DNA of 40,064 nucleotides from Chloroflexota bacterium (GTDB lineage Bacteria; Chloroflexota; UBA6077; SHYK01): contig DASRDP010000016.1 of assembly GCA_035652535.1 (NCBI GenBank), positions 1 through 40,064 of the forward strand. The letters are read 5' to 3'. Shown piece after piece: positions 8,758 to 20,279 of this stretch (positions within the stretch are counted from its first letter, which is position 1; each line of letters begins with the position of its first letter). The position numbers and the translations under genes were made by a program. Under the pieces are notes generated by a model that saw only the letters and a program-made list of their open reading frames with translations, ran no database searches and was not told the origin of the DNA.

Positions 8758-10934
8758 TTCGCAGCCAGGTTCTTGAAGAAGACGAGCGACAACGCGCATC
8801 AGCGGTTGCCGCCCTCCACACCTTCCTCGAGCCCACGTCGATCGCCGTCGTGGGAGCGTCGCGTACCCGGGGCACCCCGGGAGGCGAGGTGTTTCACAAT
8901 CTGCTCGCGGGCGAGTTCGCCGGGCCGGTCTACCCGGTCAATCCCGCTGCGGCTGTCGTTCAAAGTGTGCTGGCCTACCCATCGGTCGAGGCGATCCCGG
9001 GGCCGGTCGATTTGGCGGTGATCGTCGTTCCGCGCGAGTGCGTCGCGGCCGTCGCGGAGGAGTGCGCGCGCAAGGGCGTGCAGGCTCTGGTAGTGGTCTC
9101 GGCCGGCTTTGCCGAAGTCGGAGCTGAGGGCCGAGCCCGCCAGGAAGAGCTGCTCCGGATCTGCCGACAGGGCGGCATGCGGCTCATCGGGCCGAACTGC
9201 ATCGGCATCGCCAACACGGACCCGAACGTGCGACTCAACGCGACCTTCGGCCCCATCCGGGCGCCGGCTGGCCCCGTCGCCTTCATGTCCCAGAGCGGCG
9301 CTCTGGGGCTCGCGGCCATGGACTACGCCGCGTCGCGAGGGATCGGTATTTCGAGCTTTTTGTCCGTCGGGAACAAGGCGGACATATCCGGGAACGACGC
9401 GCTCAGCTATTGGGAGAGCGATCCGAAGACCAAGGTCATCCTGCTTTACCTCGAGTCCTTCGGGAACCCGCGTCGCTTCGCCCGCGTCGCGCGCCGCGTG
9501 GGCAAGACGAAACCCATCGCCGTGGTGAAGAGCGGCAGGTCGGTCGCCGGCGCGCGGGCAACGTCGTCCCACACGGGCGCGATGCTGGCGGCGTCGGAGA
9601 TCACCGTCGACGCTCTGTTCCATCAGGCTGGAGTGATTCGCACCAACACCCTCGAAGAGTTGTTCGACGTCGCGTCGCTCCTCGCCAATCAGCCGCTGCC
9701 CAGCGGCCGCGGCGTGGGCATCGTGACCAATGCGGGCGGCCTGGCGATCCTGTGCGCGGACGCGTGCGAGGCCGCGGGGCTGGAGATTCCGATCCTGGCG
9801 GCGGAGACCCAGGCGCGGCTGCGCGAATTCCTCCCGCCCGTCGCCAGCGTCGGCAACCCCGTCGACATGATCGCTTCCGCCACGCCCGACTCTTACGGCC
9901 GCGCCATTCACGCCCTCGCCCAGGATCCCCGGATCCACTCCATCATTGCGCTGTTCATCTCGCCGCTTCCCACAGCCTGGAGCAAAGACGTGGCTCGCGA
10001 GATCGCCGAGGCGACGCGATCGCTCGATCGAACAAAGCCCGTGCTGGCGGTCGTCATGTCGTCTGGGGGCTCGCCGCAGGAGCTGCAGACAGCCGACGTG
10101 TGCGTCCCGTCATACGAATTTCCGGAGGCTGCCGCCGTGGCGCTGGGCCATGCGGCGCGCTATGCGGAATGGCGGCGGCTGCCGGCGCCCGTATTGCCGC
10201 GATTTGCCGACGTCCGTCGCGAAGAGGCGCTCGATCTGGTCGACCATGCCGAGAGGAGCGCGGACGGGTGGCTCAGCCCACGCGCGGTTTCGGCCCTGCT
10301 CGCGTGCTATGGACTCCCTGTTGTCGAACAGTGCTTCGCGGGAACACCGGACGAAGCCGCCGCGGCCGCGGCGAAGCTCGGCGGTGAGGTGGCGCTCAAG
10401 GGCTACGCGCCAGGCCTCGTGCACAAGTCCGAAGCCGGGCTCGTGCGGCTCGATCTGGATGGCGCGGACGACGTGCGGGCGGCGGCGCGCGCTATGGCGA
10501 GCGCCATGGCGGCGAGCGGCGCTGCGAGCCCGGAGTTCGTGGTCCAGCGTATGGCGCCCCGCGGTGTCGAGATGATCGTTGGCCTCGTTCATGACTCCCG
10601 GTTCGGACCAGTTCTGGCCTGTGGAGCAGGGGGCGTACAGGTGGAGCTGTTGAAGGATATCGCCGTGCGGCTCACGCCCCTCACCCGGGAGGACGCGTCG
10701 GAGATGCTTCGGAGCCTCAAGACATATCCGTTGCTGACCGGCTTTCGCGGGGCCCGGAGCTGCGACGTCGCGGCACTCGAGGACGTGTTGCTTCGCGTGA
10801 GCGCGATGGCGGAGGACCTGCCGCAGATCCTCGAGCTGGACTTGAACCCGGTGGTCGCGCTGGCCGCGGGCGCCATCATCCTCGACGCGCGTGTCCGCGT
10901 TGACGGAGGCGGCGTCGCCACGAGCCCTCCGTGA
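8754..10934 (+). CDS. acd: ADP-forming acetyl/acyl-CoA synthetase, fused alpha-beta
   Basis: The 726-residue protein has a CoA-binding domain (about 20-150, with VVGASRTRGTPGG), two succinyl-CoA-synthetase-like domains with the phospho-histidine H273 in SSHTGA, and a C-terminal ATP-grasp domain (about 480-715). The latter carries the second conserved histidine H557 in GLVHKSEAGLV. This enzyme turns acyl-CoA, ADP and phosphate into acid, CoA and ATP in one step, conserving energy. It overlaps the oxidoreductase beta gene by ATGA, so acyl-CoA made there is probably cleaved here. Some relatives act as protein acetyltransferases (Pat), but no GNAT domain is present. The pair is typical of peptide-fermenting archaea and some anaerobic bacteria. 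Confidence 0.92.
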   Translation: MIRSQVLEEDERQRASAVAALHTFLEPTSIAVVGASRTRGTPGGEVFHNLLAGEFAGPVYPVNPAAAVVQSVLAYPSVEAIPGPVDLAVIVVPRECVAAVAEECARKGVQALVVVSAGFAEVGAEGRARQEELLRICRQGGMRLIGPNCIGIANTDPNVRLNATFGPIRAPAGPVAFMSQSGALGLAAMDYAASRGIGISSFLSVGNKADISGNDALSYWESDPKTKVILLYLESFGNPRRFARVARRVGKTKPIAVVKSGRSVAGARATSSHTGAMLAASEITVDALFHQAGVIRTNTLEELFDVASLLANQPLPSGRGVGIVTNAGGLAILCADACEAAGLEIPILAAETQARLREFLPPVASVGNPVDMIASATPDSYGRAIHALAQDPRIHSIIALFISPLPTAWSKDVAREIAEATRSLDRTKPVLAVVMSSGGSPQELQTADVCVPSYEFPEAAAVALGHAARYAEWRRLPAPVLPRFADVRREEALDLVDHAERSADGWLSPRAVSALLACYGLPVVEQCFAGTPDEAAAAAAKLGGEVALKGYAPGLVHKSEAGLVRLDLDGADDVRAAARAMASAMAASGAASPEFVVQRMAPRGVEMIVGLVHDSRFGPVLACGAGGVQVELLKDIAVRLTPLTREDASEMLRSLKTYPLLTGFRGARSCDVAALEDVLLRVSAMAEDLPQILELDLNPVVALAAGAIILDARVRVDGGGVATSPP

Positions 10935-14287: not shown

Positions 14288-15715
14288 TCAGACGCCGCGC
14301 GAAAGCTCGTCGAGCACCGTGCCGTCCGCCGCGCGCAGCTCGATTGTGAGGGGCATCTGGCCTAGCGCGTGCGTGGAGCAGGCGAGGCAGGGGTCGAAGG
14401 TCCGGATCACGGCCTCCGCCCGGTTCAGCATCCCATCCGTGAGGTGGTCGCCCACCACGAACTCCCGCGCGGTCTGGAGCAGGCCCCGATTCATCGCGAG
14501 CGCGTTGTGGCCGGTGGCGATGACGAGGTTGACCCTCTGGATCAAGCCATCGTCGTCGATGTGGTAATGATGGATCAGCGTTCCGCGCGGAGCCTCGGCA
14601 ACGCCAATGCCTTCGTGACGGTTCGGTTGCGCGTGCGCTCGAACGTGCTCGTCCAGAATGGCCGGGTCGTCCACCAGGACCTGCATTCGTTCCAGGCAAT
14701 CCAGGATCTCCACCAGCCGCGCCTGGTGGTAGAAGAACGAGCCGAGGACAGGACCGGACGCGCGCTGGCGGAACTCCCGCCATTCGCGCTGGGCGCGCTC
14801 TCCAGGGTACCCACTCGCGATGTTCAGACGGGCCAATGGGCCAACGCGATACATCCCCTCGGCCACTCCGGCTGACTTGAGGAACGTCGGCTTCAAATAG
14901 CTTTGCGCGTCCACGGTCTCGCCAATGAGGCCTTCGTACGTATTCGGGTCCCACTGATCGGCCACAGTCGCCCCGCCAGCGTCCACAACGCGAAACGCTC
15001 CGTCGTAGTAGTCGATCTGGCCCGCCTCATCCACGAGGCCTACGAAGAAGGACGGGAAATTCGCGAACGCCCGCGCCTCATTCGAAAAACGGTCGGCGGC
15101 CGATTTGATCAGCGGGAGCGCCCGCTCCACGATGGCGATGCCGTCTGGAATCATCGCCCGGATCTCCGCGCGCTTCTCTTCCGTCAGCGGCTGGCTGACG
15201 CCTCCCGGGACCATCCAGGAGGGATGGATTCGCTTACCGGCGACCAGCTCGATGGTGCGTTGGCCGATCTGGCGGAGGCGGATCCCGTCGCGCGCGACCT
15301 CCGGGTGGGTGCGCAGGACGCCGAAGATGCTCCGGTCGGCGGGCGGGGCGTCCATTCCGAGGAGGAGGTCCGGGGATGAGAGGTGAAAGAAGCTGAGGGC
15401 GTGGGACTGGATGATCTGCGCCAGGTTCAGCACGCGCCGCAGCATGACGCCCGCGGGCGGCGCCTCCACGGCCAGCAGCGCGTCGCCAGCCTTCGACGAT
15501 GCCACCAGGTGGCTGACTGGGCAGATGCCACAGATTCGCGCCATGAGGGCCGGCATCTCGTGGAAGGGACGTCCTTCACACAGCTTCTCGAAGCCGCGAA
15601 ACTGGGTGACGTGCAAATGCGCGTCCGAAACCGCGCCGGCATCGTCGAGCTGGATGGTGATCGCGGCGTGGCCCTCAATGCGCGTGACCGGGTCGATGGT
15701 GATCTGGCGGACCAT
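14288..15715 (-). CDS. hoxH: Bidirectional [NiFe]-hydrogenase large subunit
   Basis: The 475-residue subunit has the L1 motif [10 protein letters not shown] (C62, C65) and the L2 motif DPCLACSTH (C443, C446), providing the four cysteines of the Ni-Fe site. After H449 there is a 26-residue tail, the expected substrate of the maturation protease. Sequence and partners (HoxEFUY) point to group 3d, NAD-linked, oxygen-tolerant hydrogenases. These are cytoplasmic and can evolve H2 from NADH or oxidise H2. It lies seven bases downstream of hoxY. Confidence 0.95.
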
Positions 15716-15722
15716 GCTTACC

Positions 15723-16280
15723 TCAACGGCCGAATCGCGTGATCTGCGTCAGGTCGGGCGTCTCGCCGGCCAGCACGCCAGTCAGGAGCCGATAGATGAC
15801 GTCGGCCGGCGGCGGGCAGCCGGGAAGAAAGATGTCGACCGGAACCACGAGGTGGACGGGCCGGACGCGCGGGAGGAGCGCGGGCACGCCGGCCCCGGGG
15901 AGCCGCGGTTCGAGGTCCACGTTTTCGGCGAAGGACCGCGCCAGAACGGCGTCCACCGGGAAGAGGTTTCGATAGGACGGCACGTTCCCGTTGACGGCGC
16001 AATCGCCGAACGAGACGACGATTCGGCTCCGCTCACGCACGGTCCGAATCATGGCGAGATTGTGCTCTGTCCCAACCGCTCCCTCGACGAGGGTCACGTC
16101 AACGCCGTGGGGGAACTCCTTCACGTCGATGAACGGGCTGAAGACGAGGTCGAACCCTTGCGCGACCTCGACCAGCCGCTCGTCCAGGTCGAGGAAGGAC
16201 ATGTGGCATCCGGAGCAGCCGTCGAGCCACACGGTGGCGAGGCGCGGACGGCTCGCCGGTGCCCCGGCCGAGGCCGACAT
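15723..16280 (-). CDS. hoxY: Bidirectional [NiFe]-hydrogenase small subunit
   Basis: The 185-residue small subunit carries the proximal [4Fe-4S] cluster. C22 and C25 ([10 protein letters not shown]), GDCAVNG and [10 protein letters not shown] are visible. It lacks a Tat signal peptide and the extra C-terminal cluster domain of uptake hydrogenases, consistent with a soluble group 3 enzyme. The ATG at 16280 overlaps the hoxU stop by ATGA, which fixes the start. Confidence 0.93.
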
Positions 16281-17035
16281 CAGTCGACGCCCCGCATGCG
16301 AAGGAGATTCTGAAGAAAGCCGGGCTGTCGCACCGATTCGCCGGCGCTCCGCCCCTTCACGAATAGCGCACCGGTCGGGCACACGTTCACGCACTTCCCG
16401 CAGCTCGTGCACGTCGTCGATTCGCCCCACGGCTGGTTCAAATCGGTGATCAGTCGAGCCGTCGCGCCCCGCCCCATCACGTCCCACGTGTGGGCGCCCT
16501 CGACCTCTGCGCAGGCCCTCGCGCACCGAGTGCAGAGGATGCAGCGGCTGTGGTCGATGCCGAAACGCTCGTGGGACGCGTCAACGCCGTCGCGAGCGTA
16601 CAGGTAGGGGAACCGGATGTGGTCGACGCCGTGGTGCTGGGCCAACGATTGCAGCCCGCAGTGGCCGTTGGCGATGCAGACGGAGCAGATGTGGTTGCCC
16701 TCGGCGTACAGCATCTCCAGAATCATGCGCCGGTATTCGATTAGCCGCTCGGAGGCCGTTGTCACCCGCATGCCCTCGCCGACCCGGGTGACGCACGACG
16801 CGGCGAGCTTTGGGCTGCCCTCGATTTCCACGAGACAGAGGCGGCACGCGCCCACGGCGCTCAAGCCATCCAGGTAGCAGAGGGATGGGATCATCACCCC
16901 GTTGTCCCTGGCGGCTTCGAGAATCGTTTCATCCGACGCGGCCCCCACGTCCCGGCCGTCGATGCTCAGGGTGTAGACCTGAGTCGCCGACGATGCTGGC
17001 ACTGATTGGCCAATTTGTCCTGCAGCAGCCACCAT
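16280..17035 (-). CDS. hoxU: NAD-reducing hydrogenase diaphorase subunit HoxU (NuoG-like N-terminus)
   Basis: The 251-residue electron-transfer subunit has a plant-type [2Fe-2S] domain (about 20-95, with [15 protein letters not shown] and a following cysteine). It is followed by an NuoG-type His/Cys-ligated cluster region ([10 protein letters not shown]) and a two-[4Fe-4S] ferredoxin domain ([23 protein letters not shown]). It should relay electrons between HoxFE and HoxYH. The ATG at 17035 follows GGAGG, and the gene lies 11 bases after hoxF. Confidence 0.93.
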
Positions 17036-17046
17036 GTTGTCCTCCG

Positions 17047-18648
17047 TTAGGCGGGTGGGCCGAGCCGGGCCTCGTATTCGTCGCGGAAGAAGCGCAGCGT
17101 GCTCAACACGGGGCTTGGTGCGCCCTGCCCCAACCCGCAGAGGCTGGTGGTCCGAACCATCTCGCACAGCTCTTCGAGCTGCGCAAGGTCCTCTGCCCGC
17201 GCGGAGCCCTGACTGAAGCGCTTGAGGATCTCGTGCATGTGCACCGTGCCCACTCGGCATGGTACGCACTTCCCGCACGACTCCGTCATCGAGAATTCCA
17301 TGAAGTACCGAGCGACATCGACCATGCTCGACGTCTCGTCCATCACGATCATCCCGCCCGAGCCCATGATGGTCCCCAGCCGGGTGAGCGACTCGTAATC
17401 GACGGGCGTATCGAGGTGCTGCTCCGGAATGCAGCCGCCGGACGGGCCGCCGGTCTGCACGGCCTTGAACCGCCTGCCATCGGGGATGCCCCCGCCGATA
17501 TCGAACACGATCTCACGCAGGGTGATCCCCATCGGGACCTCGATGAGCCCCGTGTGGTTCACCTGCCCGCTCAGGGCGAAGATCTTCGTCCCCTTGCTCT
17601 TCTCTGAGCCGATCGACGCAAACCACTCAGCCCCATCGCGCATAATCGGCACAATATTGGCGAGCGTCTCGACGTTGTTGATCAGCGTCGGGGAGCCCCA
17701 GAGGCCCGATTCCGCGGGGTAGGGCGGGCGGGGACGGGGTTGTCCGCGCCGTCCCTCGACCGAGGCGATGAGGGCCGTCTCCTCTCCACACACGTAGGCG
17801 CCACCGCCGAGGCGCACCTCGATGTCGAAGCTGAAGCTCGACCCGCCGATGTGCTCTCCGAGCACGCCGATCCCTTTGGCGAGCCGGATGGCGTGGTTCA
17901 GGCGGCGAACCGCCAGCGGGTACTCGGCGCGGATGTAAGCGTATCCGTGATCGGCGCCGACCGCGTACCCTGCGATGGCCATCCCCTCGAGGACCCGATG
18001 AGGGTCGCTCTCCAACACGCTCCGGTCCATAAACGCGCCGGGATCGCCCTCGTCCCCATTGCAGATGACGAACTTGCGCGCCCCGCGCGCCTTGGCGACG
18101 GTCTGCCACTTGAGCCCGGTCGGGTATCCGGCCCCGCCGCGTCCGCGGAGCCCGCTTCGGGCGATCTCGTCGATAACCTGGGCCGGCGTGCGGTCCTCGA
18201 TGATGGAGAGGAGGCTCTGGTAGCCACCCGTCGCGACGTAGTCCTCGATCCGCTCGGAGTCGATCTGACCAGCGTGCTCCAGCACGACCCGCCGCTGCCG
18301 TTGAAAGAAGGGCACGTCGGTTCGGGTCCGGATCCGGTCGACCGGACTTCCATCCAGGCTTGACACGAGGTCCGGCGCGTCCGCCGCGGTCACGTGTTCG
18401 TACAGGATGCCTTCCGGTTCCACGGAGACCATTGGACCGGCCGTGCAGAGCCCGCGGCAGCCCACGTTTTTGACCGCGCATCCATCGGCCAGTCCCCGCG
18501 CCTGCAACGTCTCGACGAGGGCGCCACGCACCTGGTCGCTGCCCGCCGAGTGGCAGGCTGTCGCCGCGCAGACGTGGATCCGATGCGGATAGCGCGCCTG
18601 ATCGCGCCGTGCCCGATCCGCCATCTGCTCCAGCTCGTCGCGCGTCAT
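17047..18648 (-). CDS. hoxF: NAD-reducing hydrogenase diaphorase subunit HoxF (NuoF-like)
   Basis: The 533-residue subunit starts with a thioredoxin-like [2Fe-2S] domain (C27, C32, C64, C68). It continues with the NuoF core: the FMN/NADH site ([13 protein letters not shown], then [19 protein letters not shown]) and a [4Fe-4S] site ([12 protein letters not shown] and TSLCGLG). It oxidises or reduces NAD(H) and passes electrons to HoxU. The ATG at 18648 overlaps the hoxE stop (ATGA). Confidence 0.95.
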
Positions 18649-19142
18649 TCTGTCACCACCCGGGTGAGGTTCTCGATAAGGCGATCAGGCTCGAGGAGGC
18701 CCAAGATCTGACCGTCCAGCAGCGCAACGGGGGCGAGGCCACAGCTTCCAACACACCGGGCGGTCAGGAGCGACAGCCGTCGATCGGACGTGGTCTCGCC
18801 TCGCCCGATGCCGTATTCCTCTTCAATCGCTTTGAGGAGCGCGGTGCTGCCTTTGATGTAGCACGCAGTGCCGGTGCAGACGATGCAGGTGTGTTTCCCC
18901 TGCGGTTTGAGGTGAAAGAAGTTATAGAAGGTCGCGACGCCGAACACCCGGCTCGGCGGCAGTTCCAGGTTGGCCCCCACGTATCGCAGCGCGGCCTCAT
19001 CGAGGAACCCGAAGGCCTCTTGCGCGGCATGGAGCGCGTCGATGAGCGCCTGGGGCTCAAATCCGTGCCGCCGCATGGCCGTGTCGACCACGCGCCAGCG
19101 CTTGTCATCCGTTGGGGGAGGGATTCGGACCGGCGCGGTCAA
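18645..19142 (-). CDS. hoxE: NAD-reducing hydrogenase subunit HoxE (NuoE-like)
   Basis: This is a thioredoxin-like [2Fe-2S] protein of about 165 residues. It has the C-x4-C (CTGTAC) and C-x3-C (CVGSC) ligand pairs and the [12 protein letters not shown] segment typical of NuoE/HoxE. I place the start at TTG 19142, which overlaps the hypA stop as TTGA and gives the usual family length. A GTG at about residue 19 is an alternative. Electron transfer partner of HoxF. Confidence 0.9.
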
Positions 19143-19483
19143 TCGCTCACCTCGATGCTGGTCAAACGGAGGTCCGCGAGGTCGGGCGGGAGAAAGCCTT
19201 CCTGCCCGCACCGTGGGCACCCCGGCGCGTCGATCGCGCCCGTATAGACCTTCGCGCACGCGAGACAGTACCGCTCCGATTCGTGCGGCTGGAACTCGAG
19301 CCTGGCCCCCTCGGCCATCGTACCGCGGCTGAGGGCAAGGAACAATGTGCCCACCGCGTCCGTCGTCACGTGGCCGCCGGGCACAATGGCGAACGTGAGG
19401 CGCTCGATGCGTGTCGCACCGGCCCCGGCCGCACGGGCGCTGGCTACGTCGATGGCGCTCAGAATGATGCCGACCTCGTGCAT
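19139..19483 (-). CDS. hypA: Hydrogenase nickel-incorporation protein HypA
   Basis: The 114-residue metallochaperone has the N-terminal MHEVG nickel site (H2, E3) and a zinc site with C73, C76, C89 and C92 (YCLAC and GCPRC). It delivers nickel to the hydrogenase large subunit. It is the first gene of the hydrogenase run, just downstream of a strong terminator-like hairpin. No HypB, C, D, E or F is encoded in the window, so those must lie elsewhere. Confidence 0.9.
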   Translation of the reverse strand: MHEVGIILSAIDVASARAAGAGATRIERLTFAIVPGGHVTTDAVGTLFLALSRGTMAEGARLEFQPHESERYCLACAKVYTGAIDAPGCPRCGQEGFLPPDLADLRLTSIEVSD

Positions 19484-19550: not shown

Positions 19551-20069
19551 TCACGCGGCCGCTGGGAGCTTGGGCCGGGGCCTCTCCGTTATGTCCGTTT
19601 GCCGCCACGGTGTCCCAAGCAACGGCAGCAGGTACCGGTCGAGGCCGATGTACCCGGCGTTCTTCCACGCCAGGATGAGCGCGACCTCGAACATGGCCAG
19701 AACCGGATTCGTGCTCGCCGAGCCAGCCAGCAGGAACGCCATGTTCATCGCCAGGCCCGCTGCCGCCGCGATCCCGACGAATGCGCCGAGGACGATCGCG
19801 ATTCCGACGGCCAGCTCGCCAAAAACGATGACCTTACTGAACCATGGAGCCGAATGGGTGTCAATGAGGAATTGGATGAAGGTCCGGTACCAGTCGTAGG
19901 TGATCGGCGGCCGTCCGCTCGCGGGAATGGCGACGGCGCGCTGCCAGTACGACAGAATGCCCTCTCCGGTCGCGCCCATCCACGCCGGATCCCGGAGCTT
20001 CTCCCATCCGGACTCGATCCACTGATAGCCGATAAAGAGCCGCGCGAGGAGCCAGACGATGGCCATCAA
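19551..20069 (-). CDS. DoxX-family membrane protein (probable 5'-truncated reading frame)
   Basis: This 172-residue stretch has DoxX-type hydrophobic segments, starting with VWLLARLFIGYQWIESGWEKL and then several membrane helices in residues 70-145. DoxX-like proteins are small quinone- or redox-linked membrane proteins. Only a TTG (20069) or ATG (20066) without a ribosome site starts this frame. A well-placed ATG with an excellent AAAGGAGG lies 90 bases upstream in the same frame, but is separated by a TAG at 20109-20111. See the separate entry. The gene may be a nonsense-interrupted pseudogene, or may be translated by re-initiation. Confidence 0.75.
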   Translation of the reverse strand: MMAIVWLLARLFIGYQWIESGWEKLRDPAWMGATGEGILSYWQRAVAIPASGRPPITYDWYRTFIQFLIDTHSAPWFSKVIVFGELAVGIAIVLGAFVGIAAAAGLAMNMAFLLAGSASTNPVLAMFEVALILAWKNAGYIGLDRYLLPLLGTPWRQTDITERPRPKLPAAA

Positions 20070-20159
20070 TCCCGTGCTCTGGAATAGGAGCCGCGCAATC
20101 GGCGGGTCCTATATGAGCACGTGCCCGTATGTGTCGGTGATCCGACGCGTCCGCGGCAT
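20070..20159 (-). other. In-frame N-terminal segment of doxX broken by an amber codon
   Basis: An ATG at 20159 with AAAGGAGG (20169-20176) opens MPRTRRITDTYGHVLI, then TAG, then in the same frame DPPIARLLFQSTG leading into the annotated DoxX protein. The DPPIARLLF segment resembles the N-terminal region I recall from DoxX proteins of high-G+C bacteria. The TAG therefore probably replaces a sense codon such as GAG or CAG. It could be a real nonsense mutation, a sequencing or assembly error, or a short leader peptide. Confidence 0.7.
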
Positions 20160-20238
20160 TGTTGGATGCCTCCTTTCGGTTGGGCAGCGCTGAGTCGCGA
20201 TGCCATGTTTCTGCGTTCCAGTTTCGCCGCCGGTGCGC

Positions 20239-20279
20239 GGGTGGGCGACACCCTGTCGGGTGGTTTCCAGGTGCCACCC
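20239..20279. promoter_or_regulatory. Clustered GGGTG/CACCC elements upstream of doxX
   Basis: The cluster contains GGGTG (20239-20243), the dyad CACCC-TGTC-GGGTG (20249-20262) and another CACCC (20275-20279). The dyad lies about 90 bases before the probable original doxX start at 20159 and downstream of the usp stop at 20322. It could drive doxX and, by read-through, the hydrogenase genes. Confidence 0.5.

Follow-up and report, generated by a model that had tools for sequence, protein, structure and literature searches.

The window, a 40,064-base stretch of a draft Chloroflexota genome, carries on its minus strand a doxX gene whose reading frame is interrupted close to its 5' end. Read on that strand, the region is ACCGAAAGGAGGCATCCAACA-ATG CCG CGG ACG CGT CGG ATC ACC GAC ACA TAC GGG CAC GTG CTC ATA TAG GAC CCG CCG ATT GCG CGG CTC, and the ATG (20159 to 20157), the amber codon TAG (20111 to 20109), and the doxX TGA (19553 to 19551) share one common frame. 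The ribosome binding site, AAAGGAGG (20169 to 20176, minus strand), is separated from the ATG by 9 bases and forms an anti-Shine-Dalgarno duplex of -11.6 kcal/mol. It is the sole strong site, compared to -2.1 kcal/mol for a candidate restart codon TTG (20067 to 20069, minus strand), which is without a ribosome site, and -3.4 kcal/mol for a second candidate, ATG (20064 to 20066, minus strand), which has a weak one. An earlier note on this DNA had placed the Shine-Dalgarno sequence, ATG, and in-frame TAG at these same positions and had called the ribosome site the only good one; our reading of the minus strand and the duplex energies agree on both counts. The segment from 20159 to 20109 (minus strand) comprises the ATG, 15 further sense codons (MPRTRRITDTYGHVLI), and the TAG, and is collinear with the N-termini of five order-level homologues. 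The remainder (19551 to 20108, minus strand) consists of 185 codons and the TGA and belongs to the DoxX family, PF07681, at 27.3 bits against a cut-off of 23.6, with 40 to 65% identity to homologues across the phylum, the highest value being that of the nearest homologue. This gene differs from other family members in that the frame from the conserved start is broken by TAG at codon 17, leaving no complete open frame from that start.

We searched 60 related genomes; apart from the window's own, 33 carried homologues. Most of these match from the residue that directly follows the TAG. In the five nearest relatives the start lies 17 codons before the "DPPIA" motif (21 in L010), at or near the equivalent ATG and mostly with a good ribosome site. 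Three of these N-termini are MFKVEKVTDTNGRVWIQ, MFKVEKITDDKGQVWIQ, and MFRVTHITDEKGNVLIQ, each followed directly by DPPIA; in the other two, MFAVKHVTDSKGNVIIQ precedes DPPVA and a longer N-terminus ending in GLTDERGHVLLQ precedes DPPFV. The window has MPRTRRITDTYGHVLI, the stop, and then DPPIA. The pattern common to the five is [IVL]TD..G.V.[IL]Q followed by DPP[IVF], while the window has ITDTYGHVLI, the stop, and DPPIA. Because this pattern aligns the window TAG with the glutamine of the relatives, the amber codon sits on a conserved glutamine, encoded by CAG in four of the five and by CAA in the fifth. All 32 homologues compared have a sense codon at the position. The suggestion that a single sense codon had become TAG is thus supported at exactly that codon.

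The 16 residues before the TAG gave a summed BLOSUM62 score of 137 against the N-termini of the five relatives. As a chance control, we scored 99,071 stretches of 16 codons without a stop, drawn from the window genome, and none scored above 92. At conserved codons the third positions differ between the window and its relatives (e.g., ATC/ATT, ACC/ACG, and GGG/GGC), as in a coding region that would be under constraint. From a match so far above chance, we take the segment before the TAG to be the original doxX N-terminus. By the earlier note, homologues beginning at the later start would have refuted its reading; when their N-termini were aligned, none of the 32 began at the equivalent of 20069 or 20066, nor did any show a leader stop followed by a conserved restart. 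With TAG read as Gln, searches of 16 genomes of the order and 29 of the class yielded no further homologue interrupted by a stop, and full-length homologues had no internal stops.

This genome uses TAG as an ordinary stop. Release factor 1 (prfA) is present at 505 bits, and TAG ends 98 of 289 model genes sampled over 440 kb. We found 47 tRNAs, none of them with a CUA anticodon; since the genome is 98.3% complete, such a tRNA could still exist in the unassembled part, and this evidence of absence, though strong, is incomplete. The folding of the 80 bases 3' of the TAG is no more stable than that of shuffled sequences (z = +0.67), and neither the window nor eleven homologous loci matched an Rfam family at the gathering threshold. 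Counting how often a long open stretch continues in frame past TAG, TGA, or TAA told us nothing about nonsense frequency, since a following gene in that frame produces an equal signal. Amber recoding, as with suppressor tRNAs, pyrrolysine, or stop-to-Gln codes, resembles the present case in having an in-frame TAG at a glutamine position, but release factor 1, the use of TAG as a regular stop, and the tRNA set weigh against it.

Of the four options that the earlier note had listed, read-through and re-initiation are disfavored by these data, while recent inactivation and a consensus or strain artifact remain. Bacterial UAG read-through without a suppressor is usually low. Insertion of glutamine or another residue at the TAG, producing useful amounts of full-length DoxX, would fit the identity of the lost residue and the G that follows the TAG. 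In E. coli reporters, read-through falls in the order TGA, TAG, TAA, so that UAG is leakier than UAA (PMC11126739). Against this stand the decoding machinery described above, the lack of a stable 3' structure, and the restriction of the stop to the window, which leaves nothing conserved about the TAG, and we consider useful read-through extremely unlikely. We regard as very unlikely, though slightly less so, a 16-residue leader followed by re-initiation at TTG 20069, ATG 20066, or a weak ATT at 20099, yielding a shortened working DoxX. The first hydrophobic segment begins after 20066 and would be kept, and in Marinococcus homologues the start is only about one codon ahead of the IIRFL segment, so a shorter DoxX N-terminus is tolerated in principle. 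However, the codons of the leader match up with the N-terminus of intact proteins, the leader stop and the 20069 and 20066 starts occur in no homologue, the duplexes at those two codons are weak, and a start at either would delete the IA.xLF segment that nearly all homologues keep. An AGGA lies 7 bases upstream of the ATT at 20099 (-3.9 kcal/mol), which is the only restart that preserves IA.xLF; as ATT is a very rare start codon, we retain it as a distant option. It is hardly credible that the amber codon is used deliberately, with the leader ending at UAG and the AGGA overlapping the ATT 20099 ribosome site. Were that so, it would provide a condition-dependent, slightly shortened DoxX confined to the lineage of the window.

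We conclude that doxX has probably been inactivated by a recent nonsense mutation, in which one C-to-T change converted a glutamine codon. In this account, the ancestral gene would have been one continuous frame of 202 codons from the ATG at 20159 until one such change produced the TAG at 20111 to 20109. Transcription and initiation would proceed as before, with ribosomes from the strong site terminating after 16 residues, and DoxX would be unmade or present at trace levels through occasional chance read-through or weak internal initiation. The case resembles a nonsense pseudogene or null allele in having one substitution, an in-frame stop, an otherwise intact conserved gene, and no rescue copy of the doxX subfamily, and we found no difference from one. 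The operator-like site described below, the ribosome site, the start, the codon usage, and the 185 downstream codons are all intact, which argues that the change is recent. Codon usage in those 185 codons scores like that of neighboring genes. Dating the lesion by branch length was tried and rejected: in a tree of 33 sequences, which places it closest to L005 and L007, the window has a terminal branch of 0.41 against a median of 0.46, with no acceleration. Since the downstream codons have evolved at a normal rate, the change is either recent or an assembly artifact.

The artifact would be an error in the consensus or a base from a minority strain, with doxX intact in the organism, and it would look identical in a draft of 168 contigs with an estimated contamination of 4.56%. 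A gene that is otherwise intact and evolving normally is equally expected from it. The codon preceding the TAG, ATA, is also rare (211 of the 4,536 Ile codons used for training), so two unusual codons are adjacent, which slightly favors a local sequence problem. On the other side, the assembly holds no second allele or differing copy of the doxX region, the contig extends about 20 kb on either side, and doxX is broken independently in other genomes of the same family. We therefore consider an artifact unlikely, though well short of negligible. We infer that the organism itself carries this base, which would be neither a consensus error nor a minority strain, and that doxX is therefore off. The inactivated doxX would most likely be ordinary gene decay with no new decoding mechanism. 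It would make a clean small case: one base appears to have turned the gene off, and relatives still reveal the ancestral residue. Gene-finding programs would report the short form from 20069 and so mask the loss. Our literature search returned nothing relevant on DoxX with premature stops or on DoxX in Chloroflexi.

The window genome has a single copy of this doxX subfamily, its two other PF07681 hits being distant relatives. We compared five genomes of the same family. One (G001) has an intact doxX, and in another (G004) we found none. In G003, the copy at about 30193 to 30600 of contig C4 (L032) has its first ~20 residues lost or unrecognizable, and its frame shifts at least once, toward the end of the first conserved block; it appears to be an older doxX pseudogene. 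The G002 copy (L100, contig C13, 8623 to 8830) matches over its first ~66 residues and then runs into unrelated sequence, with the 3' two-thirds lost. It lies ~620 bases from the contig end and could be a truncation or an assembly mis-join. The lesions differ among the window genome, G003, and G002. That doxX is broken in other ways in two genomes of the family favors a real, tolerated loss. Together with the window lesion, these copies suggest that doxX is dispensable in this bacterial family, but the evidence comes from three draft genomes and is suggestive only because the G002 copy, so near a contig end, could reflect an assembly join.

Upstream of doxX, 88 bases before the ATG, lies an operator-like palindrome, CCACCC-N4-GGGTGT (20248 to 20263, minus strand), which is also found at four relatives. 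At the five doxX loci that have it (the window, L005, L021, L022, and the truncated L100 of G002), it stands 67 to 106 bases upstream of the ATG, and at three of them it is paired, the two copies standing 24 to 25 bases apart. Allowing at most one mismatch to the 16-base CCACCC-N4-GGGTGG, we counted 41 copies in the 4.45-Mb genome. Six of these fall in the 40-kb window (16 bases each, at 640, 2438, 3628, 20248, 23666, and 30101), compared to 0.4 expected from an even spread, and two of the six exact copies in the genome are among them. A literature search for the palindrome found no paper. The palindrome looks like a candidate operator for a stress or low-energy regulon that may include doxX. 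Its wider interest is that doxX would lie behind a palindrome common to neighboring stress genes.

The region from 3009 to 28747 is an island of stress and fermentation genes, with Hsp20, BON, glutamate dehydrogenase, pyruvate:ferredoxin oxidoreductase (PFOR), an acyl-CoA ligase of the ADP-forming type, a P-type ATPase, a Hox-type NiFe hydrogenase (14288 to 19259), hypA, Usp, and CBS proteins. Elsewhere in the genome, exact copies of the palindrome at 10669 (L152) and 17625 (L153) of contig C24 lie 54 and 107 bases upstream of frames that by eye are one P-type ATPase-like and one ferritin-like. Upstream of doxX at L006, GGGAC-N4-GTCCC-like inverted repeats (GGGACAGACGTCCC and GGGACAACTGTCCC) take the place of the CCACCC palindrome; we presume a resemblance to DosR-type boxes.
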